Positions 19,854-39,272 of a stretch of 64,000 nt of DNA are shown here, piece by piece. This DNA is from Fibrisoma montanum (GTDB lineage: Bacteria; Bacteroidota; Bacteroidia; Cytophagales; Spirosomataceae). Position 1 is the stretch's first letter. Each line of letters opens with the position of its first letter. The notes under the pieces are model-generated. The model saw only the letters and a program-made list of their open reading frames with translations, searched no databases and was not told the origin of the DNA. The DNA lies in NCBI RefSeq assembly GCF_003583365.1, contig NZ_QXED01000014.1, forward strand, positions 62,001-126,000, read 5' to 3'. A program made the translations under genes and the position numbers.

Positions 19854-19857
19854 ATGG

Positions 19858-20271: not shown

Positions 20272-20345
20272 GAAAAGCAGACTAACAACAGCTCTGTAGC
20301 GTGTTGTGGTCGTCAAAAGTAATGCCGGACGGCAGGCCTACAAAA

Positions 20346-20376
20346 ATCCGACCCACCGATGGGCGGTGGGTCGGAT
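20346..20376 (-). terminator. Terminator hairpin in the left repeat copy
   Basis: ATCCGACCCACCG pairs with CGGTGGGTCGGAT around a 5-nt loop. Read on the minus strand it is followed by five T. An exact copy of the DUF4242 terminator at 37065-37095. Confidence 0.8.
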
Positions 20377-20394
20377 GAGCGAACGAATACTGCC

Positions 20395-20537
20395 TTAAGC
20401 GGCTACGTCGGCCGTAGTCGGGTCGATGATCGTTGCTACCTCAGCGACCGAATTCGCCGGGAAGCCACCCTGTTCAGCGTGTTCGCGGATCATCTTTTCG
20501 TTGGGAGCAATGTATACGCAGTAAATTTTGTCGCCTG
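20395..20537 (-). pseudogene. Orphan 3' fragment of a DUF4242 gene
   Basis: Encodes, without change, the last 47 residues and stop codon of the intact DUF4242 protein at 37114-37395 (GDKIYCVYIAPNEKMIREHA and onward). Upstream of 20537 the reading frame keeps only a trace of likeness (THSCLPGDK against LHSYVTGDK), with no start codon or family N-terminus. It is a decapitated remnant, made by partial duplication or by insertion of the island into the original gene. Confidence 0.85.
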
Positions 20538-20625
20538 GTAAGCAGCTGTGCGTCACTCCGTTTGTCTGTACAGCTCTCGAAAATTGCTACATAAAACAAG
20601 TTGACTATGTACGTATTTATAATAG

Positions 20626-20659
20626 AAATGGCCGTTAATATCATGATTAACGGCCATTT
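20626..20659 (-). terminator. Terminator of the susCD operon
   Basis: AAATGGCCGTTAAT (20626-20639) is perfectly inverted at 20646-20659 around a 6-nt loop. It lies 30 bp after the susD-like stop on the minus strand. Confidence 0.7.
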
Positions 20660-20688
20660 TCGGAATACTACCTATGATTTAGTTTACC

Positions 20689-22266
20689 CTACCAACCTGG
20701 ATTCTGTTTGATATTTGGATTTCGTTCAATGACCGTCGTTGGAATTGGAAACAACCGGAATTTCGGATCCGCGATGCGACTACGGTCAATGACCAGCTTT
20801 GGTCGTTCCGCTTTGGTAGGAACTGCTCCCACCGACGCCTGTGACACCCGTTCGATGAAGATGTCATAAAAGCGCAGGCCATCAAACCACCCGTGCGCTT
20901 CCATAACCAGTTCCTTCCGGCGCTCAGTGTACAAGGCCTGGCGGAACCGCTGGTAGTCCAGACCCGTCAGGTCAACCTGCGCATCGGGTGAAGTAATGCT
21001 TTTTCCAAACGCCCGCCGACGTACCCGGTTAATCAGGTCGTACGCTTCCGCATTGGGACCTTTGTTCACCTCGTTCAAAGCTTCGGCCAGCATCAGCAAG
21101 ACGTCGGCGTAGCGCAGCACAATAAAATTAGGCTCCTCTTTGTCGAGGTCGGCGGTTCTGTTGAAGTCAACGTTCTTGCGGAAGCCGGGGGTATCCTGCG
21201 GAAAACCGTTGGCAGTTGGGTTGGCCGGGTCAAACTTAACCACCTGCCCGTTCCGCAGAAACTGGTTGTCGAACGTAACGTCTAGGCGGGTGTCGCCCGG
21301 GTTGTACGATTTATAAAAATCCAGTTCTACGTTCATCGTCTGGAATGAACTAGCGTAGGTGTTGCCCGTGTTGGCCGTTGAAATCTGCCGGGTCAGCCGC
21401 CCACCCAATCCCGACGTACGCGTCAGCTGAATATCGAAAATTACCTCCGCATTGTTTTCGTTGGTTTCGTAATCCCAGAGTTTGGCGAAACTGGCCTCCA
21501 GCGCGTGATCACCGTCCGTGATGACCTCCCGTAAGGTCGTTACGGCCTTTTGGTAGTCGTCTGGCTGCGCCAGTCCGGTAACGGTGGCACGGGTCAGGTA
21601 AACCTTTCCCAACAGCGTCTTGGCCGCACTACGGCTCGCACGACCTCGGTCAGCGGCTCCGTACGTTTTTACCGAAGGTAAATTGTCCTTGGCAAACGTC
21701 AGGTCTTCGATAATCTGCTGATAAACGCGTGATGCCGGTGCGGCTTCCACCTGCAGGTTATCGAGGCTGCGGGTTTCAGTAAGCAGCAGAGGCAGATCCC
21801 CGTAAAGCCGCACGCCGTTGAAATACGCCAGCGCCCGCAAAAAACGAGCCTCCCCTAAAATCCGCTTTTTCAGCGTTTCGTCCATGGCGATGCGGGGCAC
21901 GTTGTCCAGCACGGCGTTGGCGCGGTTGATAATCTGATAGGTGTTCTGGTAGATTCCACTTACATCACCGACGCGAGTATTCCAGGTATCCAGCCGTCCA
22001 AAATCCACCGATTGGTCCCATAGGATGCTGGTGACGGCTTCAGTCGGCAGTTCGTTTATGGCCAGCATATTGTAGCCATAGTAGTTGCCGTCGTTATCGT
22101 AGAATTTCTTGTAAACACCATTAACGGCCGCCTGGGCATCTTTGGCGTTGGCATAGAAATTACCCGGCGACAGGAAGCTGTAGGCTTCTTCTTCCAGGAA
22201 CTGTTCGTGGCAACTACTTAGCGACAACATAGCCGTGAGCGCCAGAAAGGTTGATATTTTTTTCAT
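20689..22266 (-). CDS. SusD/RagB-family glycan-binding lipoprotein
   Basis: A surface lipoprotein of 525 residues that captures oligosaccharide and covers the SusC channel. The signal MKKISTFLALTAMLSLSSC ends in a lipobox at Cys19. The body is the TPR-like SusD fold, with a hallmark N-terminal YAWDxW-like region (here DWDQSVDFGRLDTW-like), ARFLRALAYFNGVRLYGDLPL, and the C-terminal FRQALYTERRKELVMEAHGWFDGLRFYDI. It starts 19 bp after the SusC gene, so they form one operon. Binding specificity cannot be read from sequence; neighbours GH16 and GH74 point to beta-glucan or xyloglucan. Confidence 0.93.
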   Translation of the reverse strand: MKKISTFLALTAMLSLSSCHEQFLEEEAYSFLSPGNFYANAKDAQAAVNGVYKKFYDNDGNYYGYNMLAINELPTEAVTSILWDQSVDFGRLDTWNTRVGDVSGIYQNTYQIINRANAVLDNVPRIAMDETLKKRILGEARFLRALAYFNGVRLYGDLPLLLTETRSLDNLQVEAAPASRVYQQIIEDLTFAKDNLPSVKTYGAADRGRASRSAAKTLLGKVYLTRATVTGLAQPDDYQKAVTTLREVITDGDHALEASFAKLWDYETNENNAEVIFDIQLTRTSGLGGRLTRQISTANTGNTYASSFQTMNVELDFYKSYNPGDTRLDVTFDNQFLRNGQVVKFDPANPTANGFPQDTPGFRKNVDFNRTADLDKEEPNFIVLRYADVLLMLAEALNEVNKGPNAEAYDLINRVRRRAFGKSITSPDAQVDLTGLDYQRFRQALYTERRKELVMEAHGWFDGLRFYDIFIERVSQASVGAVPTKAERPKLVIDRSRIADPKFRLFPIPTTVIERNPNIKQNPGW

Positions 22267-22285
22267 GCTTAATTGAATAGATGGG

Positions 22286-25200
22286 TCAAAACTCGACGGT
22301 TAGTCCCGCCATATACGTCTTAGCCAGTGGGTAAGCGCCAAAATCAATGCCCTGGTTGATGGTGGATTGGCCCCGGTCGTTCACTTCAGGATTGTAGCCC
22401 GTGTATTTGGTGAACGTAAGTACGTTCTGCGCGGCTACGTACACGCGGGCCTGCTTAAGAAAGGGTTTATTCTTAACCGGCAGGGTGTACCCTAACCGAA
22501 TATTACGCAACCGGAGAAACGAACCGTCTTCAACAAAGAAATCGACATACTCATCAGCCGTAGGGGTGTTGTTGTAACCTGAACCACCGATCATAGGCAG
22601 CGTGCCGCCCGGATTCTGGGGGCTCCATGAGTCGTACAGCGTGCCCTTCGCTAGATTGTGGCGGCCCAGGGTCGCGTACAAATCCCGTTTGGTTGCGTTC
22701 AGCACGGAATTGCCATATACACCCTGGAAGAAGAAGTACAGTTCAAAGTTTTTGTAATTAAAGGTATTGTTCCAGCCGTAGATAAACTTGGGAGCCGGGT
22801 TGCCCAGAACGGTTCGGTCGTTTCCGTCCAGCTTGCCGTCGCCATTAACGTCTACGTAGCGAACATCACCAGGTTTGGCCGTGGGTTGTACCGAGGCTTT
22901 CACGTCTTCCGCTGTTTTGAAAATACCCGCCGTTTTGTAGCCGTAGAACAACCCAACCGGCTCGCCAACCTGCAGCATATTGCCTCGCCAGCGGTAATCG
23001 AACGTGAGCAGCGGGCCAAATACCTGATTCACCGTTGATAAAGCCAGCACTTTGCTGCGGTTGGCCGACCAGTTCAAATCCGTCCGCCAGCGCAGTGGGC
23101 CATCCAGTACGTAGCCGCCCAGCGTTAATTCAATGCCCTGATTCTGAATGTTGCCTACGTTTCCCTGCGTCGACGAGTAGCCTGAGTTAAGGGGTAGGCT
23201 GATGTCGAAGAGCAGGTCAGTCGTTTTCTTGAAATAGTAATCTGCCGTCAGCGAAAGCCGGTCATTGAATAAACTCGCATCCAGACCGATATCTGTTTGC
23301 GTGGTCGTTTCCCACTTCAGGTCAGGATTCCCGATGGCGGTGGGCGTCAGACCCGTCACCCGTTGTCGGTTAAAGGTGTAGTCAGAATTAGTAATGCGGG
23401 TCAGCGAGCGGTAGGGACCAATTTCCTGATTACCGATCTGACCAATACTGGCCCGCAGTTTCAAGTCGCTGATGAACCGAACCTGCTTGATAAACGGCTC
23501 TTCGCCCAGTTTCCAGCCAAGGGCCAGCGACGGAAAGAACCCCCACTTGTTATTCGCTCCGAAGCGGGATGAACCATCGGCCCGCGCCGATAGCGTAGCC
23601 AGGTACTTGTCTTTGAAGATGTAGCTGATGCGGCCCAGGTACGACGCTAGTGACCAGCGGTTTTTGGACGAGAAGATGCCCGGTCCACCCACCTGTGTTC
23701 CGGCCCCGATGTTTTCGAAGCCGAACGCGTCCGTCACAAAAATGCTGTTCGACATCCCGCGGAATTGCTGCGTCCGCTGCTGAAGTTCGTAGACACCTGT
23801 CACAGTAAGCTGGTGCGCCCCAAATGTTTTGTTGTAGGTGAGCTGATTGGTATTGATCCAGCTGTAGGCCGCCGTTGTTCCAATGGAAGCTGAGCCCTGG
23901 GCCGTCAGGTCGCGTTCTCCTTCTCCCGCGAAATAGTAATCCCGCTCCCGGTTATCAATATCGGTACCGAGTGTCACCCGCAGGTTTAGCCCATCCAGGA
24001 TGCGAAAATCACCGAATATGTTTCCCAGAATACGGTTTGAGGTCGTCAGGTCCGTTGTCGATTCAATGAGCTGAACCGGGTTCGTCCGGCCAAAGGGCGA
24101 CATAGGGCTGGGTTCGTCTTCCCGACGCGAATAAAGCCCGTTGTTGAGCCGAATGGGCAGGATGGGCAGGTATTGCAGCGATGCGTGTACCGCTCCCGCA
24201 TTGGCGTTACCCATTCCTCCGTCCACAATCTGGTTGTTGAGTGTCCGGCTCACCGTCAGGCTGGTGCCCGCCTTGAAGCGGTTGCTGATCTGGGCATCGA
24301 GATTCGTACGCAGGGAGTACCGCTTAAAATTCGACTTCTTCACCACGCCATCCTGATTAAAGTAGTTACCCGAAATAGCGTACTGAACCTTTTCGGAACC
24401 ACCCGAGAACGAAAGCTGGTAGTTCGAGATGGGAGCCGTCTGGAAAATCTCCTTTTGCCAGTTTGTGCCTTCGCCGGTCAACAGGGAGTTCCAGTCAGCC
24501 TGGTTATTGAATGTCGGGATGGTCTGGGGCGTATAGTACTGGGGTTGGCCAAGATTGGTAGCCTCCTGGTTTAAAAACTGAGCAAATTCCCGACCGTTCA
24601 GTACGTCGATGGTCCTGTCAACCTGCTGCACACCATGATACACGTCCAGATTTACTTTACCCTGACCGGCCTTTCCGCGCCGTGTCGTAATCAGCACGAC
24701 GCCATTGGCCCCGCGAGACCCGTAGACGGCCGTAGCCGACGCGTCTTTCAACACCTCAATTGATTCAATATCGTTCGGGTTCAGCGACGCCAGTGCGTTC
24801 GGGGAGGTGCGATAACCACCCAGTCGGCCGCCCGAGGGATTGGCTTCGTCGTTATTGTTGTAGATCGGAAAGCCGTCAACCACGTACAGCGGTTCGTTCC
24901 CGCCGTTAATGGAATTGCCTCCGCGAATGCGCACCGAAATACCACCGCCCGGGGCCGAAGACGCCTGCGTAACCTGAATGCCGGCTGCCCGCCCCTGTAG
25001 ACCCTGCTCCAGCGACACGGTGGGCATCTGCCTGATTTCATCGGCTTTAACGGTTGATACGGACCCGGTCAGATCGCTCTTTTTAACCGTACCGTACCCA
25101 ACGACCACCACTTCGTTCAGCGATTTGATGTCCGTTTCCAGTTGAACGGTCAGGTTGCTGCGAGCGCCAAGTGCGACCTCTCGCGTTAGGTAGCCGATGT

Positions 25201-25447
25201 ACGAGAAGACCAGCGTCGCATTCGCCGACGATTCTGGCACATTCAGCGTAAACCGGCCTTTGCTTTCGGTTGTAGTACCGGTTGACGTATTTTTTAATAC
25301 GACCGTTACGCCCGGTAAGGGTTCGTTGTTGGCATCAGTCACCAGTCCAGTGACCATTCGGCTTTGGCCCAGAGCCCAGTTCGACAAGCCTGTACATGTC
25401 AGTAGTAAAACTAGACATCTACCTAAAAAAGGGTATTTGTTCATCAT
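22286..25447 (-). CDS. SusC/RagA-family TonB-linked outer-membrane transporter
   Basis: A 1053-residue outer-membrane channel that imports oligosaccharides with its SusD partner. In order: signal peptide (about 1-27), carboxypeptidase-regulatory-like domain (about 30-115, VTGLVTDANNEPLPGVTVVL), the SusC signature LNEVVVVGYGTVKKSDLTGSV at about 114-134, the plug (to about 240, with VRIRGGNSINGGNEPLYVVDGFP and SATAVYGSRGANGVVLITT) and the barrel. Either of two adjacent ATGs (25447 or 25444) can start it. A LacI-type operator pair lies 164 bp upstream, so repression by the divergent regulator is likely. It is first in an operon with the SusD gene. Confidence 0.95.
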   Translation of the reverse strand: MMNKYPFLGRCLVLLLTCTGLSNWALGQSRMVTGLVTDANNEPLPGVTVVLKNTSTGTTTESKGRFTLNVPESSANATLVFSYIGYLTREVALGARSNLTVQLETDIKSLNEVVVVGYGTVKKSDLTGSVSTVKADEIRQMPTVSLEQGLQGRAAGIQVTQASSAPGGGISVRIRGGNSINGGNEPLYVVDGFPIYNNNDEANPSGGRLGGYRTSPNALASLNPNDIESIEVLKDASATAVYGSRGANGVVLITTRRGKAGQGKVNLDVYHGVQQVDRTIDVLNGREFAQFLNQEATNLGQPQYYTPQTIPTFNNQADWNSLLTGEGTNWQKEIFQTAPISNYQLSFSGGSEKVQYAISGNYFNQDGVVKKSNFKRYSLRTNLDAQISNRFKAGTSLTVSRTLNNQIVDGGMGNANAGAVHASLQYLPILPIRLNNGLYSRREDEPSPMSPFGRTNPVQLIESTTDLTTSNRILGNIFGDFRILDGLNLRVTLGTDIDNRERDYYFAGEGERDLTAQGSASIGTTAAYSWINTNQLTYNKTFGAHQLTVTGVYELQQRTQQFRGMSNSIFVTDAFGFENIGAGTQVGGPGIFSSKNRWSLASYLGRISYIFKDKYLATLSARADGSSRFGANNKWGFFPSLALGWKLGEEPFIKQVRFISDLKLRASIGQIGNQEIGPYRSLTRITNSDYTFNRQRVTGLTPTAIGNPDLKWETTTQTDIGLDASLFNDRLSLTADYYFKKTTDLLFDISLPLNSGYSSTQGNVGNIQNQGIELTLGGYVLDGPLRWRTDLNWSANRSKVLALSTVNQVFGPLLTFDYRWRGNMLQVGEPVGLFYGYKTAGIFKTAEDVKASVQPTAKPGDVRYVDVNGDGKLDGNDRTVLGNPAPKFIYGWNNTFNYKNFELYFFFQGVYGNSVLNATKRDLYATLGRHNLAKGTLYDSWSPQNPGGTLPMIGGSGYNNTPTADEYVDFFVEDGSFLRLRNIRLGYTLPVKNKPFLKQARVYVAAQNVLTFTKYTGYNPEVNDRGQSTINQGIDFGAYPLAKTYMAGLTVEF

Positions 25448-25824
25448 GTTTATTTTATACTTTTTCTATTTTGCTGGTTTGTGAAATTCGGGCAGATAAC
25501 TCATCTGTATGGGGTAAAGACTTTGCCGGTGGACAGAAACGTATTTCTAAGCTAGGGCCATTTATGGCGCTCCGCAATGATTTTTTAGTTAGAAAATAAG
25601 ATTTTTTTTACTTTAACGTTGCCGAAAACGTTAAAGCCCGTTACCGAAAAAGTACTCTGCTTTGATGCAGTTGAAGATTCTGTGTATATTTCCGTCTGGA
25701 GGGGGGTAGTGAACTTGCTTGCCTAAACCCCAATGCTGAACTTGCTCTACCTCGCTTTACTTGATTTAATAAATTGTATTTATTCGCTATCGAGCGAAAA
25801 GGCTGCCAGTGCTTCCACTTACGT
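25448..25824. other. Divergent control region between susC and lacI-type gene
   Basis: These 377 bp separate the divergent SusC and LacI-type genes. They contain the operator pair at 25611-25636. A near-palindrome AATAAA-TTGTA-TTTATT lies at about 25769-25785, close to the regulator start. No TAnnTTTG element was clear on either strand, and there is no gene. Confidence 0.55.
25611..25636. promoter_or_regulatory. LacI-type operator pair upstream of susC
   Basis: CTTTAACGTT (25611-25620), 6-bp spacer, AACGTTAAAG (25627-25636). Two AACGTT cores centred on CpG, as in LacI-family operators, lie 12 bp apart and are mirror images. The same design recurs at 28572-28597 and, fused into one 14-bp palindrome, at 28913-28926. 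Confidence 0.7.
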
Positions 25825-26838
25825 ATGAAAAACAATCCGGCAACAATTAAGGACATTGCCCGCAAGCTCAATCTGTCCGTAACAACCATCTCGAAAGCCC
25901 TGCGGGGTATGCCGGACATCAGCGTACCGACGCGCCAGTTAATCGTGGAAACGGCCCGCCAGATGGATTACCAGCCGAATCCGATCGCGCAAAGTCTGGT
26001 TAAGAATCAGACGCACAACATCGGCGTCATCATCCCCAGTTTTACGATTCCGTTCTATGCGTCGGCCATCAGCGGGATTCAGCAGACGGCGGCCGAAGCG
26101 GGCTACAACATCATGGTTTGCCAATCGAACGAATCGGTGGCAACTGAAATCACGTATACGCAATTGCTGCTCAACAACCGGGTGGATGGGCTGATTGTCT
26201 CTCTTTCGCGCGAGACGACCAGCTTCGACCATTTTGCCCCGCTGATCCGGCGGTCGATCCCGTTGGTGTTTTTCAACCGGGTATCGGAGGAAATGCCGGT
26301 TTCTAAAGTTGTCGTCGATGATTACCAGGGGGCGTACCGGGCTGTGAGCTACCTGATTGAGCGGGGTTGCCGACGGATTGCCCATATCGCCGGACCAGAG
26401 AATTTGCTGTTAAGCCAACAGCGATTAAAGGGATATGTCGATGCCATGCGGGAGGCAGGCCTGTCGGTACCGGATGAGTACATACGTCACGGCGATCTGA
26501 CGATTGCCAATGGGGCCTTCATTACGAGTGAGTTACTGACGGACGTCAACCCGCCTGATGCCGTTTTTGCCGTGTGCGATTCGGCGGCTTTCGGCGCGTT
26601 GCAGGCCGCCAAAAGCCGGGAGCTAAACATCCCGTCGGACCTGGCCCTGGTTGGCTTTACGGATGAGCCCGTGGCAGCCATCGTTGAGCCGGCCCTAACG
26701 ACGGTGGCCCAGCCAATTTTTGACATTGGGCAAGTAGCGGCCAAGCTGTTCCTGGATCAGATACGGCTGGGTGAATCGTACACGCCTACAACACACGTAC
26801 TGGAAACCAGACTGGTTGTGCGGCAGTCAACACCCTGA
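25825..26838 (+). CDS. LacI-family transcriptional regulator
   Basis: A 337-residue sugar-responsive DNA-binding protein. The N-terminal helix-turn-helix and hinge (TIKDIARKLNLSVTTISKAL then YQPNPIAQSLV) is standard for the family; the C-terminal periplasmic-binding-like domain begins at about residue 60 (NIGVIIPSFTIPFYASAISG) and includes the usual AVFAVCDSAAFGAL and ALVGFTDEP stretches. ATG 25825 is chosen; the frame opens 17 codons earlier in AT-rich DNA. It is divergent from the SusC gene and convergent with GH16. Operators with a LacI-type CpG core at three places in the island make it the natural regulator of the cluster. Effector unknown. Confidence 0.92.
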   Translation: MKNNPATIKDIARKLNLSVTTISKALRGMPDISVPTRQLIVETARQMDYQPNPIAQSLVKNQTHNIGVIIPSFTIPFYASAISGIQQTAAEAGYNIMVCQSNESVATEITYTQLLLNNRVDGLIVSLSRETTSFDHFAPLIRRSIPLVFFNRVSEEMPVSKVVVDDYQGAYRAVSYLIERGCRRIAHIAGPENLLLSQQRLKGYVDAMREAGLSVPDEYIRHGDLTIANGAFITSELLTDVNPPDAVFAVCDSAAFGALQAAKSRELNIPSDLALVGFTDEPVAAIVEPALTTVAQPIFDIGQVAAKLFLDQIRLGESYTPTTHVLETRLVVRQSTP

Positions 26839-26883
26839 GTGTTCAGCAAGCCGGGGGTAGCTACCTCCGGCTTGCTGAACACT
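26838..26883. terminator. Bidirectional terminator between lacI-type and GH16 genes
   Basis: A perfect 17-bp stem (26838-26854 with 26867-26883) and a 12-nt loop. Its left arm starts on the last base of the regulator's TGA. It can end transcription of both convergent genes. Confidence 0.75.
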
Positions 26884-26892
26884 TAGCATACT

Positions 26893-28386
26893 CTATTCTT
26901 TCAGAATACGGCGAACCTGCTGGCGGCCCTGCCCATCGGTGATCTGTAACAGATACATACCCGTATGGGCTTTGTTCATCGTAATTGGAACAAGCTGCTC
27001 GCCATTTTCTGCTACCTGAACGGTCCGGCTGAAGTCGGCCCGACCAGCCATGTCCAGCATCTTTAGGTGATACGTTTCTCCGGGAGTGCCCTTTACCAAA
27101 ACCTGTACGCGCTCGGTAATGGGGTTAGGATAGACCTCCACCGAAAACGAAGGATCACGCCTACCTTCCTCGGCTATAAGCCGTGCTCCCGCTGGTTTGG
27201 TTACCTTTAAAAAATCGATGTCGGGCCCGACGTTATTAAGGGCTGTCAGCCGAACCGTATTGGAGCCGCTGTTGAGCGCTACATTGCTGACGGTTACGGT
27301 TGCCCACGTACCCCAGCTGGTGGTTCCATTGAAAGCGAGCGAGGAGTTCACGGTTATGCCGTTTACCTGTAACTGCAGCGGCCGGTTAGCCCCCGAGCCG
27401 TTGGTATACCGGAACTCCAGCGTGTGAGTCCCGGCCGTTGACGCATTTACCGTCCACTGGGTGTACACCCCCGATCCAAAGCTGCCAGGGTAATCAACAT
27501 ACGCACTGTTGGAGGCCCCTGTCCAACCTGAAGCTGTCTGCACACCACCGGCTTTGGTCGCGTTTTCAGCTTCATAGGTGGTGCTGGTTCCCCCCGTACT
27601 GGCTGATTTTTGATACACTCTTACCCAGTCTACCTCCATGTACCGGGGCAGATTAACACAACTTAAGGTTCCGCCGGTCCAGGGTTGGTTGGCAGCATGG
27701 ACGTTCAGCATCATGTAAATACCATCGCTTACGGCATTCCACTGGTTTAAAAATGCATCTGCATCGGGCCGGGCGTAGGTACGCCGAACCTGTCCGTCTA
27801 CGTACCATTTGATGTAGTTAGGATCCCATTCGCAACCAAAGGTGTGAAACGCCGTCGACAAATCACCGCCATTCCAGGCTTGTCCGCTTTGCTGGTGCGT
27901 AGCTGAGCTGCTTCCCCAGTGTACGGTAAACTGAGCACTCTGGTTAGAGCCAAATATCTCCATGATATCCAGTTCGGGGGGCCACTGATCGTTGTTGAAC
28001 TTTGCCCAAAAAGCCGGTAACAGTCCGGCTGCAGCGGCCGGTACCTTAATCCGGGCTTCCCAATAGCCGTACTTCTGGATGAATTTGTTACGCGAGTTGA
28101 TGGCTCCTGATTTATAGCCGTTGTCGCATTCCATTTCAATTTTTAACGTACCGTTTGAAACCACCACATTTTCAGGCCGCGTTGTTTCATTAAAGGCCCC
28201 ACTGACCGGCCCCCAGCCAAATCCCTGGCTCCATTTGGTCTGATCGAGGGACGTACCATTAAAGTTGTCTTCAAACTTCAGCGTCCAGGTTGCTCCCGAG
28301 GGTGGCTGCGCCCAGCTTAGCGTAGGTAGTGTCAGAATACTCAGGAAGAGAGAAAGCCATTGCCAAATACGTAGTGATTTTAACAT
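26893..28386 (-). CDS. Secreted GH16 beta-glucanase with CBM6 and type IX sorting domain
   Basis: A 497-residue secreted endo-beta-glucanase. Signal peptide 1-26 (LPTLSWAQ). The GH16 domain (about 33-262) has the catalytic motif ELDIMEIF with Glu138 as nucleophile and Glu143 as acid/base. A CBM6-like module follows (about 273-403, YEAENATKAGG then FRYTNGSGANRPLQLQVNG), and then a type IX secretion C-terminal sorting domain (about 420-497, with EVYPNPITERVQVLV and GMYLLQITDG). GH16 members with this motif mostly cut beta-1,3 or mixed-linkage glucans. The gene is under a probable LacI operator 186 bp upstream. Its CBM resembles that of the GH74-type protein. Confidence 0.92.
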   Translation of the reverse strand: MLKSLRIWQWLSLFLSILTLPTLSWAQPPSGATWTLKFEDNFNGTSLDQTKWSQGFGWGPVSGAFNETTRPENVVVSNGTLKIEMECDNGYKSGAINSRNKFIQKYGYWEARIKVPAAAAGLLPAFWAKFNNDQWPPELDIMEIFGSNQSAQFTVHWGSSSATHQQSGQAWNGGDLSTAFHTFGCEWDPNYIKWYVDGQVRRTYARPDADAFLNQWNAVSDGIYMMLNVHAANQPWTGGTLSCVNLPRYMEVDWVRVYQKSASTGGTSTTYEAENATKAGGVQTASGWTGASNSAYVDYPGSFGSGVYTQWTVNASTAGTHTLEFRYTNGSGANRPLQLQVNGITVNSSLAFNGTTSWGTWATVTVSNVALNSGSNTVRLTALNNVGPDIDFLKVTKPAGARLIAEEGRRDPSFSVEVYPNPITERVQVLVKGTPGETYHLKMLDMAGRADFSRTVQVAENGEQLVPITMNKAHTGMYLLQITDGQGRQQVRRILKE

Positions 28387-28571
28387 AAAAAATCAGAGTT
28401 AAGGGTGAAATGAAAAAAGATTACATACATAAATAATACAATCCAACGACTAGTGACAAGGGTGGAATCAAGAAGACGAAGTTGGGGTATGGATGTAGCA
28501 GATGAATGGAAGTTATAACAGCTCAACAGCAATTATCAAGAAAAATATAAACTATTTATCAAAAAATTTTA

Positions 28572-28597
28572 CTTTAACGTTACCTAAAACGTTAAAG
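28572..28597. promoter_or_regulatory. LacI-type operator pair upstream of GH16
   Basis: CTTTAACGTT (28572-28581), spacer ACCTAA, AACGTTAAAG (28588-28597). Outer arms are identical to the susC site; only the 6-bp spacer differs. Centre is about 200 bp upstream of the GH16 start. Confidence 0.7.
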
Positions 28598-28912
28598 CTG
28601 TAAAGGGTATAACAAAGAAGTGAGTCGTTGAACTACTCTTTTGTTACAACTTACTTATTAACCGTCATCAAAATCTGAGAAGTCAATTCTAAGAATAAGT
28701 CAATACTTTGCTAACGCTTTCCTGTTAATTCCCGGTTGATAAAACCAAAAAGCCTCACACTACCGACCAAGGCCTGCGCAATTCCATACAACCTTAAAAA
28801 AAGTCAATTTGCAGCCATCGCTTACTAACTAGACAAGCACAGATCCCTTACAGGTGTTTAGTCGCCTTCGCTGCGCCGGATACAAACCAATTAAGGATTT
28901 TTTTGTGGTTCA

Positions 28913-28926
28913 CTTTAACGTTAAAG
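28913..28926. promoter_or_regulatory. LacI-type operator upstream of the GH30-like gene
   Basis: CTTTAACGTTAAAG, a perfect 14-bp palindrome with a central CpG, the classic LacI-family operator form. It lies 149 bp before the GH30-like ATG and joins the two half-designs seen at the other sites. Confidence 0.7.
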
Positions 28927-29075
28927 AACCTATGCTGACCAGTTAACCCAATTTTTTTAGGAATAGCTGTACTAAAAAGTGTTGCCTCTTTCTGTAACTT
29001 CTCCTTCGAAACGGGTCAAGTTTGAATTTGCAGAATCGTTTCAAAGCCCAAAGCTCTTTTAATAATACAATTCAT

Positions 29076-30584
29076 ATGTACCAAAGGACTACCTGTATTA
29101 ACCTCCTCATTACCGTCGTCACGCTGTTATCGGCTCGTACCGCAGTAACGGCTCAGGCCGACAACTTCACGGCGGTTCAGGCCGAGGTTGACTTTTCGAA
29201 AAAAATAAGACCCTGGGATGGGTTTGGATTCAACTATGTCGAAACCGCTCAAACTATAAACTACGGCAGGGATAAGCAGGAATACGGGGGTTTTAGTTTG
29301 CTAAAAGAGGCTGATCGGCAGCGTATTCTACAACTGGTGTTTGGTGAGGATGGGCTGAAAGTAGGGCTGCTGAAGATGTTCTACGATCCTCACCACCAGC
29401 AGGCGGCCAACGGCGCGTTTGACCACGAAAGCTCCACCCAATGGATTCGGCAGTTTGCCCGCGAGGGGCTAAAAATTACCCGACAGCGCGGGGCAGATCT
29501 GCAAATCATCACGACGCTGTACGGCCCGCCCCCATTCGTCACCAAGCAGAAAACCATGCGTGGCCGCGACCTTGACCCGGCCATGAAAAGTGCCTTGTCG
29601 CAATATCTGGTGGATTGGGCAACGTACTTGAAAGAGAAAGAAAAGCTGCCGGTCCGTTACATCTCCCTGCACAACGAAGGCGAAGACTGGTTCCGGTGGG
29701 ACCCGGTAGACGAGACGGGTAACATAGGCCACGGCCATGATTATAATATGTTCTGGTCGCCTGCTTTGGTGGCCGAGTTCATCAAACGCGTACGAACGGA
29801 CCTCGACAAAGCCGGCCTGAAAGACGTCGGCGTTACGCCCGGCGAAAATACGAACTGGTACCGCTGGAGCCACTGGGGCTACGCAAACGCCATTGCCGAT
29901 GACCCGCAGGCACTCCAAAATTTGGGACTGATTACGTCGCATGGCTTCTATGTCGGCAGTTACGGTCGCTGGTTTGGCGAGCACACTAGTTTCGGTACTG
30001 ATCTGTTACGCGAGAAACGACCGGAACTGCATGCCTGGGTAACGTCCACCAGCTGGAGCGGCATGGATACGAAAAACGTGAAGGAGTTTCACGGCAACAT
30101 CTATACCGCCAAAGTCAACGGAATCATTCCCTGGGCGGGTATTCAGCGGCCGGTTCAGTGGGTAGGTGGCGACCCGAATCCGGGCTCGGCGTTTACTGTG
30201 CGCGAAGACGGTACGTACGAAATCCGGCGGGGTTATTACTTCTACAAGCAGTTAACCCGCGCCGGTCAGCCGGGCATGGCCGTGGCCCGCACGTCGTCAA
30301 TGGATTCAGAGATGCCCATCATCGCCTTTGCCGGCAATGGGACTGCGAATAAAGATGCGTTCGTGGTCACCAACATGTCGGCGTTTAACCGGCGGATTGT
30401 CATTGCCCTAAAAGGCACCGGAGCAAAAACGTTTACGGGTTTCCGTACGACCGAAAAAGCCGACCGCTATCAAAACATTGCCGAGGAGACATACAAAGCC
30501 ATCGGAAACGTATCAGTTAACGCGGAAGGTAATCTGGTATACGAAGCGCCGGCGGGGTCAGTGACCACTTTCTTTGCCAACTGA
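29076..30584 (+). CDS. Exported GH30-like glycoside hydrolase family protein
   Basis: A 502-residue exported protein of clan GH-A, closest by eye to GH30 O-glycosyl hydrolases. Signal peptide about 1-27 (VVTLLSARTAVTAQ); (beta/alpha)8 barrel about 35-390, beginning RPWDGFGFNYVE as GH30 does; a beta side domain at the C-terminus. The acid/base Glu201 is present in SLHNEGEDW. At the expected nucleophile position the protein reads WVTSTSW, with Ser324 where Glu is usual, so catalysis is in doubt. ATG 29076 is preferred to an upstream TTG. It lies in the island behind its own operator, 9 bp before the GntP gene, so it is the first gene of an operon. Confidence 0.75.
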   Translation: MYQRTTCINLLITVVTLLSARTAVTAQADNFTAVQAEVDFSKKIRPWDGFGFNYVETAQTINYGRDKQEYGGFSLLKEADRQRILQLVFGEDGLKVGLLKMFYDPHHQQAANGAFDHESSTQWIRQFAREGLKITRQRGADLQIITTLYGPPPFVTKQKTMRGRDLDPAMKSALSQYLVDWATYLKEKEKLPVRYISLHNEGEDWFRWDPVDETGNIGHGHDYNMFWSPALVAEFIKRVRTDLDKAGLKDVGVTPGENTNWYRWSHWGYANAIADDPQALQNLGLITSHGFYVGSYGRWFGEHTSFGTDLLREKRPELHAWVTSTSWSGMDTKNVKEFHGNIYTAKVNGIIPWAGIQRPVQWVGGDPNPGSAFTVREDGTYEIRRGYYFYKQLTRAGQPGMAVARTSSMDSEMPIIAFAGNGTANKDAFVVTNMSAFNRRIVIALKGTGAKTFTGFRTTEKADRYQNIAEETYKAIGNVSVNAEGNLVYEAPAGSVTTFFAN

Positions 30585-30593
30585 CGGACAGGT

Positions 30594-31916
30594 ATGGCAG
30601 CACTTCTCATTGTTACCGGGGGGATAGTCGGGTTGCTGTTCCTGATGGTATTTCTTCGGCTTAACGCTTTTCTGGCGCTCATTATCACCTCCTTGATGGT
30701 AGGCGTAGCTGAGGGCATGGCACCCGTGGATGCGTTGAAGTCGGTGCAGAGTGGCGTAGGCAGTACGTTGAGTAGCATTGCCCTGATCCTGGCCTTCGGT
30801 GCCATGTTGGGTAAGATCGTTGAAGACAGTGGGGCCGCCCAGCGCATTACGTTTGGGTTGATTGGCCTTTTTGGCCAGAAACGATTGCAGGGGGCACTAC
30901 TGCTTACGGGGTTTGTTGTCGGCTTGCCGATGATCTACAATGCCGGCTTTCTGGTGCTGATTCCGCTGGTCTACACGCTGGCATCGGCTACCCGACTGCC
31001 TTTGCTGTACGTCGGTATTCCCATGTCGGCCTCCTTGTCGGTGGCGCACGGCCTGTTACCACCCCATCCGGCCCCAACGTCCGTAGCCGCGCTATACCAC
31101 GCTGACGTGAACCTGACATTGGTGTACGGCATTGTGTTGGCCATACCAGCCATCGGCTTGTCGGGCTTATGGTTCTCGCGCTTGTTTAAGCACTCAACGG
31201 CCGAAATTCCATCCCGGTTTTTTACCTACCAACCAAAACCGGACGCCGAATTACCACCAATTGGCGTGAGTCTGCTTTGTACGCTGCTACCGGTTTTTCT
31301 GATGATCGTATCGGCTATACTGGACTTACTGCTGACCAAAGACTCACCCTTGACGCAAGCCGCTCATTTTCTGGGCGACCCGACCATTGCCCTCGGGCTG
31401 GCGGTGTTGTTGAGCTGCTGGCTTCTGGGTACCCGCCGGGGCCGCACGATGGCCGAGATGATGGATCTGGCCGGCACGGGCGTTAGCAGCGTGGCTATGG
31501 TGCTCTTGATCATTGCCGGGGGCGGAGCGTTCAAGCAGGTACTTCTGGACAGTGGCGTCGGAGAAACCATCAAACAGGTAAGCGCTGGCCTTTCGCTGTC
31601 CCCGTTGCTGCTGGCCTGGTCGGTAGCGGCTCTGCTGCGGTTGGCGTTAGGCTCGGCTACGGTAGCGGCCATCACCTCGGCAGGGATTGTGCTGCCGGTT
31701 TTAGGAGCAGCACCGTCGGTGAAGCCGGAATTGCTTGTGCTCGCGTCGGGAGCCGGTAGCCTCATGTTCTCGCACGTCAACGACATTGGGTTCTGGATGT
31801 TCAAGGAGTATTTCAACCTGAACCTCCGGCAAACGTTTTTCTCCTGGACGGTTATGGAGACGATTGTAGCGGTAGTCGGATTATTGGGAAGCATCGGATT
31901 GAGCTATGTGGTATAA
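30594..31916 (+). CDS. GntP-family sugar-acid permease
   Basis: A 440-residue inner-membrane carrier with about 12-14 hydrophobic segments. GntP members co-transport gluconate or related sugar acids with protons. Landmarks are FGAMLGKIVEDSGAAQRI, the conserved PMIYNAGFLVLIPLVYTLA, GLLPPHPAPTSVA and, near the end, GAGSLMFSHVNDIGFWM, all hallmarks of the family. It starts 9 bp after the GH30-like gene and overlaps the next gene by 11 bp, so it is in the same operon. A sugar-acid substrate is likely; which one is unknown. Confidence 0.92.
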   Translation: MAALLIVTGGIVGLLFLMVFLRLNAFLALIITSLMVGVAEGMAPVDALKSVQSGVGSTLSSIALILAFGAMLGKIVEDSGAAQRITFGLIGLFGQKRLQGALLLTGFVVGLPMIYNAGFLVLIPLVYTLASATRLPLLYVGIPMSASLSVAHGLLPPHPAPTSVAALYHADVNLTLVYGIVLAIPAIGLSGLWFSRLFKHSTAEIPSRFFTYQPKPDAELPPIGVSLLCTLLPVFLMIVSAILDLLLTKDSPLTQAAHFLGDPTIALGLAVLLSCWLLGTRRGRTMAEMMDLAGTGVSSVAMVLLIIAGGGAFKQVLLDSGVGETIKQVSAGLSLSPLLLAWSVAALLRLALGSATVAAITSAGIVLPVLGAAPSVKPELLVLASGAGSLMFSHVNDIGFWMFKEYFNLNLRQTFFSWTVMETIVAVVGLLGSIGLSYVV

Positions 31917-32871
31917 AGCCTTTCTTCTTGGCATTCTGATGATGTCGTTGAAACCCGCTAAGCTGTTGAAACCGAAGGAGGTGTACCAGGTGCTGTACAT
32001 TAATTCGTACCATGCCGGCTACGGCTCCAGCGATTCAGTGATGGCTGGTATCCGTCAGACGCTGGCTGCGTCGGATAATGTAGCACTGAACGTATGCTTC
32101 ATGGATACCAAGCGGCACCCTGACCTAGCAACGGCGAAAGCCCAGGCGATCAAGCAACAGATTGACTATCTAAAACCTGACCTTGTGATTGCGTCAGACG
32201 ATGATGCTGTCCGCGAAGTCGTCGTGCCGTATCTGAAAAACAGCAGTATACCGGTTGTTTTCTGTGGAGTAAACTGGTCGGCCAAGGCTTATGGATTACC
32301 CGTCGCCAACGTAACGGGTATGCTAGAAGTGGTACCGATTCGCGAAACACTGGAGACCATGAAACGCTGCTATCCGCAGGCCCGGAAGCTGGTGATTTTG
32401 TCCGAAAACAGTCCCGCCGAGCAAAAGAATACACAGGTGCTGGACACCCTGTACCGTGCTCTTGGGTTTAGTCCCGAGTATGCACTCGTTGATGATTTCA
32501 ACGCCTGGAAGCAGGCCTTCCGAGACGTTAACCAGACGGCCGATCTGATCTACCTGTCAACGAACGGCAGCATCCGGGGCTGGCAGAACGAGGAAGTCAG
32601 GGCGTTCGTCGCCCAGACGATTCGTCGGCCGGTAATTACCTGCGACGACTTTATGATGCCTTATGCGGTGTACGGACAAACGAAGGTGGCCCGCGAACAG
32701 GGCGAATGGGCCGCTCGTACCGCCTTAAAAATTCTACAGGGTGCTAAACCGGCCAGCTTTCCGCTGACGCGCAATCTTCAGTCGGTTTGCTGGTTTAACC
32801 CGACTCTGGCCGAGCGCATACAGTTCAAACCGGATACCAAACAGTTACAATCTTGTCGAAAATTATTATGA
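31906..32871 (+). CDS. ABC-type substrate-binding protein, orphan
   Basis: A 321-residue protein with the bilobed fold of the ABC substrate-binding family that includes TrpX-like proteins. It begins VLYINSYHAGYGSSDSVMAG and has PDLVIASDDDAV, SIPVVFCGVNWS and ARKLVILSENSPAEQKNT in the expected order. The N-terminus (MWYKAFLLGILMMSL) is hydrophobic but has no clear signal cleavage site. No ABC permease or ATPase lies beside it. It overlaps the permease gene by 11 bp and the amidohydrolase start by 4 bp. It may feed a sensor or the GntP system; that is inference. Confidence 0.75.
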   Translation: MWYKAFLLGILMMSLKPAKLLKPKEVYQVLYINSYHAGYGSSDSVMAGIRQTLAASDNVALNVCFMDTKRHPDLATAKAQAIKQQIDYLKPDLVIASDDDAVREVVVPYLKNSSIPVVFCGVNWSAKAYGLPVANVTGMLEVVPIRETLETMKRCYPQARKLVILSENSPAEQKNTQVLDTLYRALGFSPEYALVDDFNAWKQAFRDVNQTADLIYLSTNGSIRGWQNEEVRAFVAQTIRRPVITCDDFMMPYAVYGQTKVAREQGEWAARTALKILQGAKPASFPLTRNLQSVCWFNPTLAERIQFKPDTKQLQSCRKLL

Positions 32872-33677
32872 TCATTGACGGAGACACCCACATCTCGCCC
32901 CTCCCGACGGGCGGCAACAGCATTACAATCGATGAACTTCTCCGGCGTATGGACCGGGCGGGCGTCGACAAAGCTATTACCTGGATTCAGCCTCCCTACT
33001 GGCGGTTAACTGAAGACTCGAACCGCTACGTGTACCAGGCCACCAAGGATCACCCCGACCGGATCCTGGGCTTTGGGTGGGCCGACCCCAACTGTGGTGT
33101 ACAGTACGCATTAGATGAGACCAGGCGGTGCATTGAGGAATATGGCTTCTACGGCGTCAAGATGAATGGTGCGCAAAACGACTTCTTCATTGACGACCCA
33201 AAGCTGGCCATGCCCGTGATCGAATACATGGCCACGACGGGCAAAATGATGGCTTTCCACATCGGCGGAGATTCGCCTGAGCATACGCACCCATTCCGAC
33301 TGGCTAAGATCGCCCGTTTGTTTCCCGCTATGCAGATTTTCAATGTGCACATGGGGGGCGCTCACTTCCACGACTTCGGCAATGCCTGCATTGAACTTAC
33401 GCAGGAGTGTCCGAACGTAACCATCATTGGCAGTGTAATTCGGTGCCAGCCCTTGTTGAAAGCTGTAAAAACCCTGGGGGCTAACCGGGTATGCTATGGC
33501 AGCGATACGCCGTTCGAACTCATGCACGTTGAAGTGGCCAAATACAACGCTTTGCTCGATGGGGAGGTGACTGAGGACGAAAAAGCGCTGATTATGGGCG
33601 AAAATATCGCCCGCCTGTTCGGATTGACCCCCTTGCCGACGACCGTAAGCGCCGACGTGCAAACCGTTATCGCGTAA
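32868..33677 (+). CDS. Amidohydrolase-family metal-dependent hydrolase
   Basis: A 269-residue TIM-barrel enzyme of the amidohydrolase-2 type. It begins IDGDTHISPL, where the usual strand-1 HxH is only DTH here, then has FHIGGDSPEHTH, FNVHMGGAHFHDF and the terminal metal Asp in VCYGSDTPFE. Relatives act on lactones, decarboxylate aromatic acids or hydrolyse related bonds. ATG 32868 overlaps the stop of the preceding gene (ATGA), the sign of translational coupling; a TTG at 32853 is the alternative. With the GntP permease it suggests import and ring-opening of a sugar lactone or acid, which is inference. Confidence 0.78.
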   Translation: MIIDGDTHISPLPTGGNSITIDELLRRMDRAGVDKAITWIQPPYWRLTEDSNRYVYQATKDHPDRILGFGWADPNCGVQYALDETRRCIEEYGFYGVKMNGAQNDFFIDDPKLAMPVIEYMATTGKMMAFHIGGDSPEHTHPFRLAKIARLFPAMQIFNVHMGGAHFHDFGNACIELTQECPNVTIIGSVIRCQPLLKAVKTLGANRVCYGSDTPFELMHVEVAKYNALLDGEVTEDEKALIMGENIARLFGLTPLPTTVSADVQTVIA

Positions 33678-33698
33678 CCAGTCTCTTGCCATAAACGC

Positions 33699-33727
33699 AA
33701 GCCGGTGAACCACCGATTCACTGGCTT
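33699..33727 (+). terminator. Probable terminator of the GH30-to-amidohydrolase operon
   Basis: AAGCCGGTGAA and TTCACTGGCTT form an 11-bp stem with one mismatch and a 7-nt loop, 22 bp after the amidohydrolase stop. The T-tract is weak (TTGTT). Confidence 0.5.
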
Positions 33728-33894
33728 GTTGTCCCCGCCGATGCCGCAACCGGCGATGGAAGTACATACTGAATAATTCCTTCTTCGGTCGCCTAACGTT
33801 CATGTATAACTAGCTCATAAATCACCCTTGCTTACTGCTTAGCGGAAAACGGTCGTTTTCCTGCTTGCCAGCCAACACCCTAAACTTTTAGATT

Positions 33895-36800
33895 ATGAAA
33901 AACTGTACAATCTATTACCTCGTTCTCTTTCTGCTGCTGGTCAGCAAAGGACAGGGGCAATCGTACCGCTGGGGTAATGTAGCGGTAGGTGGTGGTGGCT
34001 ACACCATCGGCATAAAGATTCATCCCAAGAATAGTGATCTGATTTACGTACGAACCGACGTTGGCGGTATGTATCGCTGGGACCCGGCGGGTCAAAGGCT
34101 AGTTCAACTCTTTAACTGGGTCACCTCCGAACAGGACAATCTATACGGTATTGTAGGCATTGCGCTGCACCCCACTGATCAGAACCTGGTGTATGCCGGA
34201 GCCGGTAAGTACCTGGGATCAACGCCACACGGCGTCTTTAAGTCAACGAACCAGGGCGCTACGTGGGTAAACCTGAACCTACCCGTCCCCAATGCCTTTG
34301 ACGTAAATAATGGCAATACCGACCATCGTTTCGGTAATCCAATTGAAGTTAACCCGCACGCGCCGAATCAATTATGGGTTGGAACCGTAAAAGACGGCTT
34401 GTACGTGTACGACGAAACCACGGGCCAATGGTCGCTCGTAGCCTCCATTCCAACCGGTTCCAGCGTTCGGAACATTGTATTTGACCCCAAACCTAATTCT
34501 TCGCTTGTATACGTCGGCATCCGGGATAAGGGGGTGTACCGAAGCACGGACGACGGTAAAACCTTCAGCCAGATTCCCGGCAGTGAAGGCTTTACCATTC
34601 AGGATTTAGACCTGTCGAAGAGTGGCAATAAACTGTACGTGACCACCGAAACGCAGGGTATCCTCCGCCTGGAAAACCCCAAAAAAGCGTCGCAGTGGAT
34701 AACCATTTCACCGGGTGGACAGACTGAATTCCGTGGCTTTGCCGTTAGTCCCCACGAAAACGATGTGTTGGTTACGTCGCCCAAAAACGGCATCGGGCTC
34801 AGCACGGTTTATGTCTCTACCAACGCCGGGGATACGTGGACACTGACCCAGAAAGGCACCATTGACCAGGTCTTTCCCTGGCATCCGGCTTCGTACCCCG
34901 GCTCGGCGATTTCTCAATTTGTTTTCGACCCAAATCCGGCCTATCCGAACCGCGTTTATTTCACCGACTGGTACAGCGTCTGGCGCACGGATAACGTCCT
35001 GGCACCTACTGTCGACTGGACCAACCAATATGGCCAGGGACACGAGGAAGTGGTCAACCTGAGCATGGCTGCTCCGCCGAACAACGGAGCAGGGGTTGTG
35101 CTGTACTCGGGCTTTGCTGACATCAGCGGGTTTCGTCATTCTAACCTGAAAGCGTTTCCCACGCAGAACATCCGGACCATAACCCCCGGAGCGGGCGGAA
35201 ACCTCAATGACATCACCGGCATTGACCACAGCGAAAACAACCCTTCGTTCGTAGGGCTGAGCAGTGAGGACAAACATGCACCCAACACCGGAGCGTTTGC
35301 TTATTCTACTGACAACGGGGAGACGTTCACGCTATCGGACGGTTACAATCCAGCCTGGGGATACGCCCGCGTTGCAGTAGGTACTACCTCAGCAGCACCG
35401 GGGGTGCCGGCTGTAGTCGCCGTGTCTAAAGGGGGAGGTGTACGCTACTCTACGGACGGTGGTAAAACCTGGGCTGCTTCAACCGGCACACCTGGTTCAA
35501 CGGATATGGGCATTACGAACTCCCTATTCAATAGTTATGTGTATCCCGTCGCTGCAGATCGCGTAACGCCTAATACGTTCTACATCTACGTCCGAAGTAG
35601 TGGGCAAGTGCTACGAAGCACCAATGCCGGTGGCAGCTTTGCGCCACTGACAACCTGGCCGGTGGGTGGCACGAGCCTTATTAACGTAGAAGCCACGCCG
35701 GGCGTAGCGGGTCATGTGTGGGGAGCCTTAGGCAATAGCGGCCTTTACTGGTGGAACGGCACGAGCAGTACCCGTATACCCGCTGTAGCCGAGGCCCGAC
35801 TCATGTCGTTGGGCAAGCCAGCGCCGGGTTCTCCGTACCCAACTATCTATCTGTACGGCCGCTTGACCGGAGACACCGAGCGGTGGATCTACCGGTCCAT
35901 CGACCAGGGAAGCACCTGGATTCGCATTAATAATGAGCGCAACCGGATTGGCGACAGCCCGCAGGTGATGAAGGCCGACCGTCAGGTGTACGGCCGCGTG
36001 TACATTGGCACCAACGGTACGGGCGTGTGGTACGGAGAAGCTGTTAACTCCGGCGTAGAGGATTCACAGGCACCGAGCATCCCCCTGAATCTGACGTCGC
36101 CCGGGAAAACAGACAAAACAGTTGATCTGATCTGGTCGGCAGCTACCGATAACATTGGCGTGATTGCGTATGATATTTACCAGGGTACTACGTTCGTGGG
36201 CACGTCGACTACCACTAGCTACCAGGTTGGCGGCCTGGCGGGGAACACGAACTATTTGTTCTCGGTGCGTGCGCGTGATGAGGCCGGCAATACGTCGGAA
36301 GCCAGCCAATCGCTCAGCGTAACGACCAATCCTGCGCCGTTGAAGTCAATCTACGAAGCCGAAGACGGGGTATTTTCAGGGCCTGTCATTGCCCAATCGT
36401 GGACGGCCTACTCGGGTACCGGCTACCTCGATTATCCCAGCTTCATCGGGGCTTTTAATCAGTGGACCATAACCGTTCCTTCAACTGGTATGTACACCCT
36501 TGAGATCCGGTATACCAACGGCTCTGGCGTCAATCGGCCTTTGAGCTTACAGGTTAACGGCACGATGGTGAAGTCCTCCGTTGACTTTAACGGTACCGGG
36601 ACCTGGGGCAATTGGCAGACCGTAACCGAAACGGCGTCCCTGAACGGGGGCGATAACACCATCCGCCTGACGGCTATCCAGGCCACAGGACCGGACATCG
36701 ACTATGTGAAGGTTACGCCTGTATCCGGTGGTAGAAAAGGACTTGCTACGGTAAGCGAAGGTGACATTTTTTCCTTATTTCCCAACCCGGTGCGGGACCA

Positions 36801-37017
36801 CGTAACGATCCGTTACTACTCGCAGAACGAGCAACCAGTACGCGTACTGATTTCGTCAAGTGCCTTGGTGCGCGTTGGCAACATAGAGAAAGTTGTAAAG
36901 GCAGGTCTCAACCAATTTACTGTTCAGTTGCCCTCCCTGCCGACGGGTTTGTATTTTGTGACGTTGCAGACGCAAGCGGGCGAGCATTGGGTTAAGAAGC
37001 TTGTCGTTGAGAAATAG
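33895..37017 (+). CDS. Secreted GH74-type xyloglucanase-like protein with FN3, CBM6 and type IX domain
   Basis: A 1040-residue secreted protein. Signal peptide about 1-22. The first 700 residues are tandem seven-bladed propellers of the GH74 family, with Asp-box repeats (GVFKSTNQGATW, GVYRSTDDGKTF, VYVSTNAGDTW). Both catalytic aspartates of GH74 seem present: Asp55 in YVRTDVGGMYRW, and Asp409 in FADISGFRH. A fibronectin type III domain (about 725-815), a CBM6 module (about 820-945) and a type IX sorting domain (about 957-1040, with LFPNPVRDHVTIRYY) follow. GH74 enzymes cut the backbone of xyloglucan. The CBM6 is much like that of the GH16 protein. It has its own upstream region and is the last gene of the island. 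Confidence 0.88.
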   Translation: MKNCTIYYLVLFLLLVSKGQGQSYRWGNVAVGGGGYTIGIKIHPKNSDLIYVRTDVGGMYRWDPAGQRLVQLFNWVTSEQDNLYGIVGIALHPTDQNLVYAGAGKYLGSTPHGVFKSTNQGATWVNLNLPVPNAFDVNNGNTDHRFGNPIEVNPHAPNQLWVGTVKDGLYVYDETTGQWSLVASIPTGSSVRNIVFDPKPNSSLVYVGIRDKGVYRSTDDGKTFSQIPGSEGFTIQDLDLSKSGNKLYVTTETQGILRLENPKKASQWITISPGGQTEFRGFAVSPHENDVLVTSPKNGIGLSTVYVSTNAGDTWTLTQKGTIDQVFPWHPASYPGSAISQFVFDPNPAYPNRVYFTDWYSVWRTDNVLAPTVDWTNQYGQGHEEVVNLSMAAPPNNGAGVVLYSGFADISGFRHSNLKAFPTQNIRTITPGAGGNLNDITGIDHSENNPSFVGLSSEDKHAPNTGAFAYSTDNGETFTLSDGYNPAWGYARVAVGTTSAAPGVPAVVAVSKGGGVRYSTDGGKTWAASTGTPGSTDMGITNSLFNSYVYPVAADRVTPNTFYIYVRSSGQVLRSTNAGGSFAPLTTWPVGGTSLINVEATPGVAGHVWGALGNSGLYWWNGTSSTRIPAVAEARLMSLGKPAPGSPYPTIYLYGRLTGDTERWIYRSIDQGSTWIRINNERNRIGDSPQVMKADRQVYGRVYIGTNGTGVWYGEAVNSGVEDSQAPSIPLNLTSPGKTDKTVDLIWSAATDNIGVIAYDIYQGTTFVGTSTTTSYQVGGLAGNTNYLFSVRARDEAGNTSEASQSLSVTTNPAPLKSIYEAEDGVFSGPVIAQSWTAYSGTGYLDYPSFIGAFNQWTITVPSTGMYTLEIRYTNGSGVNRPLSLQVNGTMVKSSVDFNGTGTWGNWQTVTETASLNGGDNTIRLTAIQATGPDIDYVKVTPVSGGRKGLATVSEGDIFSLFPNPVRDHVTIRYYSQNEQPVRVLISSSALVRVGNIEKVVKAGLNQFTVQLPSLPTGLYFVTLQTQAGEHWVKKLVVEK

Positions 37018-37060
37018 ATGTAGGTGTGCTGGAAGCCTTTAAGTTCATATAGCGAATCTG

Positions 37061-37256
37061 AAAAATCCGACCCACCGATGGGCGGTGGGTCGGATGAGCG
37101 AACGAATACTGCCTTAAGCGGCTACGTCGGCCGTAGTCGGGTCGATGATCGTTGCTACCTCAGCGACCGAATTCGCCGGGAAGCCACCCTGTTCAGCGTG
37201 TTCGCGGATCATCTTTTCGTTGGGAGCAATGTATACGCAGTAAATTTTGTCGCCTG
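37061..37256. repeat. 196-bp exact direct repeat, right copy
   Basis: Identical to 20342-20537, same orientation, 16,719 bp away. It covers the DUF4242 terminator and the last 47 codons of the intact DUF4242 gene (minus strand). It starts 44 bp after the GH74-type stop. Confidence 0.95.
37065..37095 (-). terminator. Terminator of the DUF4242 gene
   Basis: A 13-bp perfect stem (ATCCGACCCACCG / CGGTGGGTCGGAT), 5-nt loop, and five T on the minus strand: a textbook intrinsic terminator 19 bp beyond the stop codon. Duplicated at 20346-20376. Confidence 0.85.
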
Positions 37257-37395
37257 TTACATAGCTGTGTAACCACTGAATTTCAGGCCCCATGGTACGC
37301 AGTACACCACATGAAGTTTGAGAAATGGCCTGTAGTTGTTCGGTTGACAGATTTCCGGCCCCCGGAATTTCACGTTCAATTACATACTTGGGCAT
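37114..37395 (-). CDS. DUF4242 (nickel-binding-like) small protein
   Basis: A 93-residue protein of the DUF4242 family, a small ferredoxin-like fold; some members bind nickel. Typical features are YVIEREIPGAGNLS at the start, LHSYVTGDKIYCVYIAPNE in the middle and REHAEQGGFPANSVAEV towards the end. The intact gene has its last 47 codons duplicated at the other edge of the island. Its upstream neighbour on the same strand, a methyltransferase, is 113 bp away. The cell role is unknown. Confidence 0.85.
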   Translation of the reverse strand: MPKYVIEREIPGAGNLSTEQLQAISQTSCGVLRTMGPEIQWLHSYVTGDKIYCVYIAPNEKMIREHAEQGGFPANSVAEVATIIDPTTADVAA

Positions 37396-37508
37396 GTTAG
37401 AAGCGGTTAAAAGTAACCCTACTCATCTGGCTTTTCGGAACGCCCCGTTTTTTACATGGTAGCTGGTCTCCATGATTGACTTTCAGTACGTTGTAGGCTT
37501 GCTGGCTG

Positions 37509-38612: not shown

Positions 38613-38632
38613 CCTAAATCAATCGCTGCGCC

Positions 38633-39268: not shown

Positions 39269-39272
39269 GTCT

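Follow-up and report, generated by a model that had tools for sequence, protein, structure and literature searches.

How did a 16.5-kb cluster for polysaccharide use come to lie between two identical copies of one gene's 3' end? The locus lies in a 64,000-nucleotide stretch of a Fibrisoma montanum contig (NCBI RefSeq assembly GCF_003583365.1, NZ_QXED01000014.1, positions 62,001 to 126,000; hereafter the window, with positions counted from its first letter). The gene encodes a small DUF4242 protein, and the cluster (the island) holds a SusC/SusD pair and several carbohydrate-active enzymes. We favor, with moderate confidence, the explanation that the island entered the DUF4242 gene at its 3' end and duplicated 196 bp of its target, without a dedicated recombinase.

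A gene end present twice

The stretches that bracket the island (20342–20537 and 37061–37256) are identical at 196 of 196 positions, in the same direction, when compared letter by letter. This bears out an initial annotation of the locus, as does the finding that the 3' end of DUF4242 and its terminator are present in both copies, and the 5' part in the right one alone. The identical stretch spans codons 48–93 of the 93-residue protein, the stop codon and the 53 bp that follow it; residues 1–47 are missing from the left copy, and the right copy is full-length. In both copies a run of T follows a hairpin whose arms are 13 bp long. A simple terminator scan reported all 13 pairs of this hairpin in the left copy and a version of just five pairs in the right, because the bases beyond the common T run differ. 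The bases flanking the two copies are unequal (C and G before, G and T after), and a repeat finder reports the pair as 209 bp at 98% because nine of the 13 bases past the identity agree in register. Sought elsewhere, as had been suggested, the repeat occurs in two copies and no third in the 7.79-Mb genome. It is also the sole direct-repeat pair in the 951 kb scanned for repeats of 80–1500 bp at 94% identity or more, lying 0.5–80 kb apart.

The intact DUF4242 gene is preceded by a leader, a DUF805 RNA. In 190 genomes of the family, 55 DUF805 RNAs score above the cut-off; a comparison by hand places 10 of them immediately before a DUF4242 match on the same strand, together with two further RNAs that score below it. 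DUF4242 matches of this kind occur in 39 of 200 genomes, a sample that differs from the 190. The phrase 'DUF805 RNA' was not found in the literature searched.

Direction and age of the event

We compared the locus with one other member of the genus (G001, hereafter the sister). Window positions 17138–20274 and 37509–42278 match a single stretch of the sister genome in order, with the island absent (85–88% identity beside the island, 78% further out), and the two island-flanking genes lie 178 bp apart. The initial annotation had looked to relatives for an island-free site with an intact DUF4242 gene; the site is there, but no DUF4242 was found in the sister genome. In two genomes of other genera (G113 and G006), the methyltransferase gene that borders our locus on the right is followed by the RNA and then by DUF4242. 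This shared arrangement and the island-free sister together suggest that the gene pair is probably older and that the island is a derived insertion. Judging from gene order, the pair was probably present in the ancestor of the genus, with DUF4242 lost separately in the sister. A gain of DUF4242 in F. montanum is less likely because the same order and the same leader would need to be recreated.

The absence of any difference in 196 bp places a 95% upper bound of 1.5% on the divergence of the copies, or 2.9% over 102 less constrained sites. Compared with the sister, 24% of third positions differ in the methyltransferase gene and 39% in the left neighbor. The duplication would thus be recent relative to the split between the two genomes, as first proposed from the repeat identity, unless conversion has renewed the copies. 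With the same proviso, these figures argue against an island that is ancestral in the genus and was lost by the sister together with DUF4242. A single deletion would have taken both from the sister, which indeed has neither. However, no GH74 relative was found at an expectation value (E) of 1e-100 or less in 221 other genomes of the family, with the best three to four candidates scored per genome at most, and we regard an ancestral island as very doubtful.

The sequences around the repeat copies also indicate a direction. The 70-bp segment adjoining the left copy on its left can be aligned with intergenic DNA of the sister (score 23, equaled by none of 1,000 and by one of 2,000 shuffles); its counterpart at the right copy gives no such alignment (585 of 2,000 shuffles as good). 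With outer flanks that look native and inner joints that look new, the event looks like an insertion of the island with duplication of 196 bp of its target. The initial annotation had an element entering the 3' end of DUF4242 and bringing its own replacement 3' end. We retain the derived insertion and not the imported end, as the left flank looks native and duplication of 196 bp of the host is simpler.

Beyond the copied stretch, the nine agreements in 13 bases are equaled by 14 of 200,000 random 13-mers from the window, and past those bases in-register matches are merely scattered. This pattern is what would be expected of a joint made in a patch of partial homology, and it suggests one; its rival is the edge of a conversion tract. 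Under that rival, the left copy would be an old paralog fragment kept identical by gene conversion, and the beyond-chance match could mark where conversion ended. Against this, the left-copy residues just upstream of the identity (THSCLP) depart from the pattern W-x-x-S-[YF]-[VI]-[TA], which fits all 68 distinct family segments, our own included (obtained from 124 matches by discarding six that begin beyond residue 30 and collapsing identical segments). The lack of more than scattered agreement beyond the 13 bases and the native look of the left flank likewise speak against a paralog, and we consider it improbable. An old, diverged paralog was the history that the initial annotation had set against insertion at this site, and the departure from the family pattern disfavors it.

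Candidate routes of insertion

We propose that a foreign 16.5-kb polysaccharide-use cluster would have entered the 3' end of the host DUF4242 gene with no dedicated recombinase, its ends joining the chromosome 196 bp apart, which would have given a second copy of the last 46 codons and the terminator. The 3' end already present would have remained beside the left neighbor, and the intact gene would have remained behind the methyltransferase gene. We infer two candidate routes of recombination: two illegitimate joints, or the integration, by a single crossover inside the 196 bp, of a circle whose own closure had been illegitimate.

Searches for mobility functions are in keeping with this proposal and with the earlier remark that no integrase is visible. 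The nine island open reading frames (ORFs) contain no recognizable recombinase domain (Pfam for all nine, and PHROGs for seven of them) and no transposase domain. There is no transfer RNA (tRNA) gene in the window and no inverted repeat of at least 40 bp in 19.5–38.5 kb, and the 100-bp ends of the insert, compared in inverted orientation, show no likeness, 1774 of 2000 shuffles matching as well. The island thus has the target-derived direct repeats of an integrative element at both ends and no recognized internal integrase or recombinase, and it has neither the terminal inverted repeats nor the transposase of a DNA transposon. Its features are those of a recombinase-free insertion: a putatively foreign insert, little or partial homology, and a target duplication.

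Integrative elements at gene 3' ends, such as tRNA-type genomic islands, duplicate the 3' end, leave the gene intact and carry direct repeats at both ends. Our locus shares all three features and differs in having no recognized integrase, a protein-coding target and a longer exact repeat. A site-specific element that used the DUF4242 3' end as its attachment site, supplied a replacement 3' end, and either lost its integrase or relied on one acting in trans would account for a gene that stays whole and keeps its terminator, as at other 3'-end attachment sites, and would suit the compact interval. It fits poorly, however, with nine ORFs devoid of a recombinase domain and with exact identity over 196 bp, non-coding bases included, where attachment cores are usually shorter. 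Nor does the repeat occur elsewhere in the genome or a DUF4242 match lie near related clusters in the stretches examined (for G407, 9 kb of a 26-kb contig). We view such an element as possible but rather unlikely.

An event of the type that we propose is already known from bacterial recombination. In a study of conjugation into Escherichia coli, 56 of 60 clones gave a polymerase chain reaction product diagnostic of partial lacZ duplication, and 14 sequenced clones had target duplications of 109–950 bp, ascribed to a single crossover of a circle with part of the homology lost (PMC3240628). Those single-crossover insertions, which stand beside homology-facilitated illegitimate recombination, resemble our locus in their foreign DNA, duplicated target-gene end and lack of a site-specific recombinase; they differ in that the experiment used engineered homology and selected for the product (PMC3240628), whereas the cluster here is a natural one of 16.5 kb. 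The island likewise resembles segments that vary between conspecific strains, which are present in some genomes and could be deleted through direct repeats, but 66–94% of the repeats in that report are shorter than 30 bp (PMC2884548), while the one here spans 196 bp and belongs to a gene.

Several points weigh against insertion with target duplication. The species is represented by one strain. The sister, lacking DUF4242, is not an exact empty allele, and one has to suppose either an additional loss there or a gain of DUF4242 here. Of the 12 genomes with the methyltransferase at E ≤ 1e-60, only three, our own included, have DUF4242 adjoining it; in the other nine, DUF4242 is absent or elsewhere. 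The long residence of DUF4242 rests on gene order in the two other genera and gains no support from composition, as its third-position guanine-plus-cytosine (GC) fraction of 0.50 is the lowest among the genes measured. On its terminator side, the left flank resembles the sister weakly (21 of 1,000 shuffles as good), and we do not use it as support. The data are compatible with illegitimate joints, with a single crossover and with an integrase acting in trans. Lastly, the assembly is a draft of 39 contigs, and the same graph would result from an island-free chromosome together with a circular form of the island. The repeat could in that case be a collapsed or misplaced graph node, and 196 bp does exceed the common short-read length. 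We give such an artefact very little credence: the two flanks match a single stretch of the sister in order, and no replication gene that would permit independent existence was recognized in the nine island ORFs.

Island contents, origin and potential for loss

As a polysaccharide locus the island is ordinary; its junctions alone are unusual. Polysaccharide utilization loci of Bacteroidota combine a SusCD pair, a regulator and secreted glycoside hydrolases, and the island resembles them in each respect, with both a SusC/SusD pair and carbohydrate-active enzymes (Table 1). The gene set initially listed (SusCD, LacI, GH16, GH30, GntP and GH74) proved incomplete, as it left the ABC_sub_bind-like and amidohydrolase 2 genes unnamed. 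Its GH74 assignment holds, with 31 distinct solved sequences at E ≤ 1e-10, of which 17 align to the catalytic part (residues about 20–718), many of them named xyloglucanase, and 14 to the C-terminal modules only. The GH30 assignment does not: the protein has a GH59 match under the Pfam cut-off (21.8 versus 27 bits), no NCBIfam match and no solved relative. Within the island, an intergenic stretch at 28387–29021 is low in GC (0.41 for 28001–29000), and its ORFs are all of 50 residues or fewer.

Table 1. Features of the island, the repeat copies and the native flanks (window positions)
Feature	Position	Strand	Remarks
137-residue gene, left native flank	19858–20271	−	no Pfam match; membrane protein according to the initial annotation
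Left repeat copy	20342–20537	−	DUF4242 codon 48 to stop and downstream terminator hairpin; fragment without start or leader
Inserted segment	20538–37060		16,523 bp
SusD	20689–22266	−	
SusC/RagA TonB-linked receptor	22286–25447	−	
LacI-type regulator	25774–26838	+	
GH16	26893–28386	−	type IX secretion tail
Putative glycoside hydrolase	29022–30584	+	sub-threshold GH59; GH30 in the initial annotation
GntP-family gluconate:H+ symporter	30594–31916	+	
ABC_sub_bind-like protein	31906–32871	+	PF04392
Amidohydrolase 2 family protein	32853–33677	+	Amidohydro_2
GH74 xyloglucanase-type enzyme	33895–37017	+	fn3 and CBM35 modules; type IX secretion tail
Right repeat copy	37061–37256	−	inside the intact DUF4242 gene, with its terminator hairpin
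Intact DUF4242 gene	37114–37395	−	93 residues; PF14026, SCO4226-like
DUF805 RNA	37412–37478	−	RF03081; leader of the intact DUF4242 gene; 66 bits, cut-off 51.1
Methyltransferase gene, right native flank	37509–38357	−	upstream of DUF4242

Searches for relatives of SusD, GH74 and the GH30-like protein, together with GC content, point to a foreign origin of the island. As with GH74, a search for SusD relatives at E ≤ 1e-100 found none in 199 genomes of the family, with at most the best seven candidates scored per genome. The GH30-like protein has relatives, at 53–55% identity, in three of 379 other genomes of the order, from two other families; two of the three carry further island-type genes nearby, 28–50% identical, including one GH74 match at 21%. 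GntP relatives at E ≤ 1e-100 occur in 187 of 200 genomes, our own included (best other 53%), so that this widespread gene is no marker of origin. In two genomes from other families, relatives of both the ABC_sub_bind-like and the amidohydrolase 2 gene are found close to the GH30-like gene. A location of the island on plasmids was considered and rejected: a tblastn search of a plasmid collection with GH74 gave 48 records, all below 60% identity and none covering 80% of the query. No description of the locus was found in the literature, among the matches listed.

The insert has a GC content of 53.1%, and its flanks 55.3% and 54.8%. Third-position GC is 0.58–0.69 in the nine island genes and 0.69–0.78 in most flanking genes measured, the exceptions being DUF4242 and two genes (0.58 and 0.62) of a segment at 42279–46512. 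This second segment, too, is missing where the sister is colinear; it holds cyclophilin-like, AraC-type, cupin and carboxylesterase genes, and no flanking repeat was found for it within the limits of the direct-repeat scan.

When the flanks of the island are joined in a script, an intact DUF4242 gene results whichever copy is kept. Recombination between the copies would therefore remove the island cleanly, as had been anticipated from the repeat, and leave the target gene whole. It is a long shot that polysaccharide clusters without a recombinase move in this way within populations, duplicating and preserving the end of a target gene and carrying a built-in repeat for one-step loss; if they do, a whole nutritional trait would be losable in one step with the target gene left intact. 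For F. montanum itself, the locus appears to be a recent and clean case of a complete plant-glycan trait entering a Bacteroidota chromosome with no visible mobile element and no damage to the target gene, and the exact repeat predicts that the trait may be lost again in a single step.

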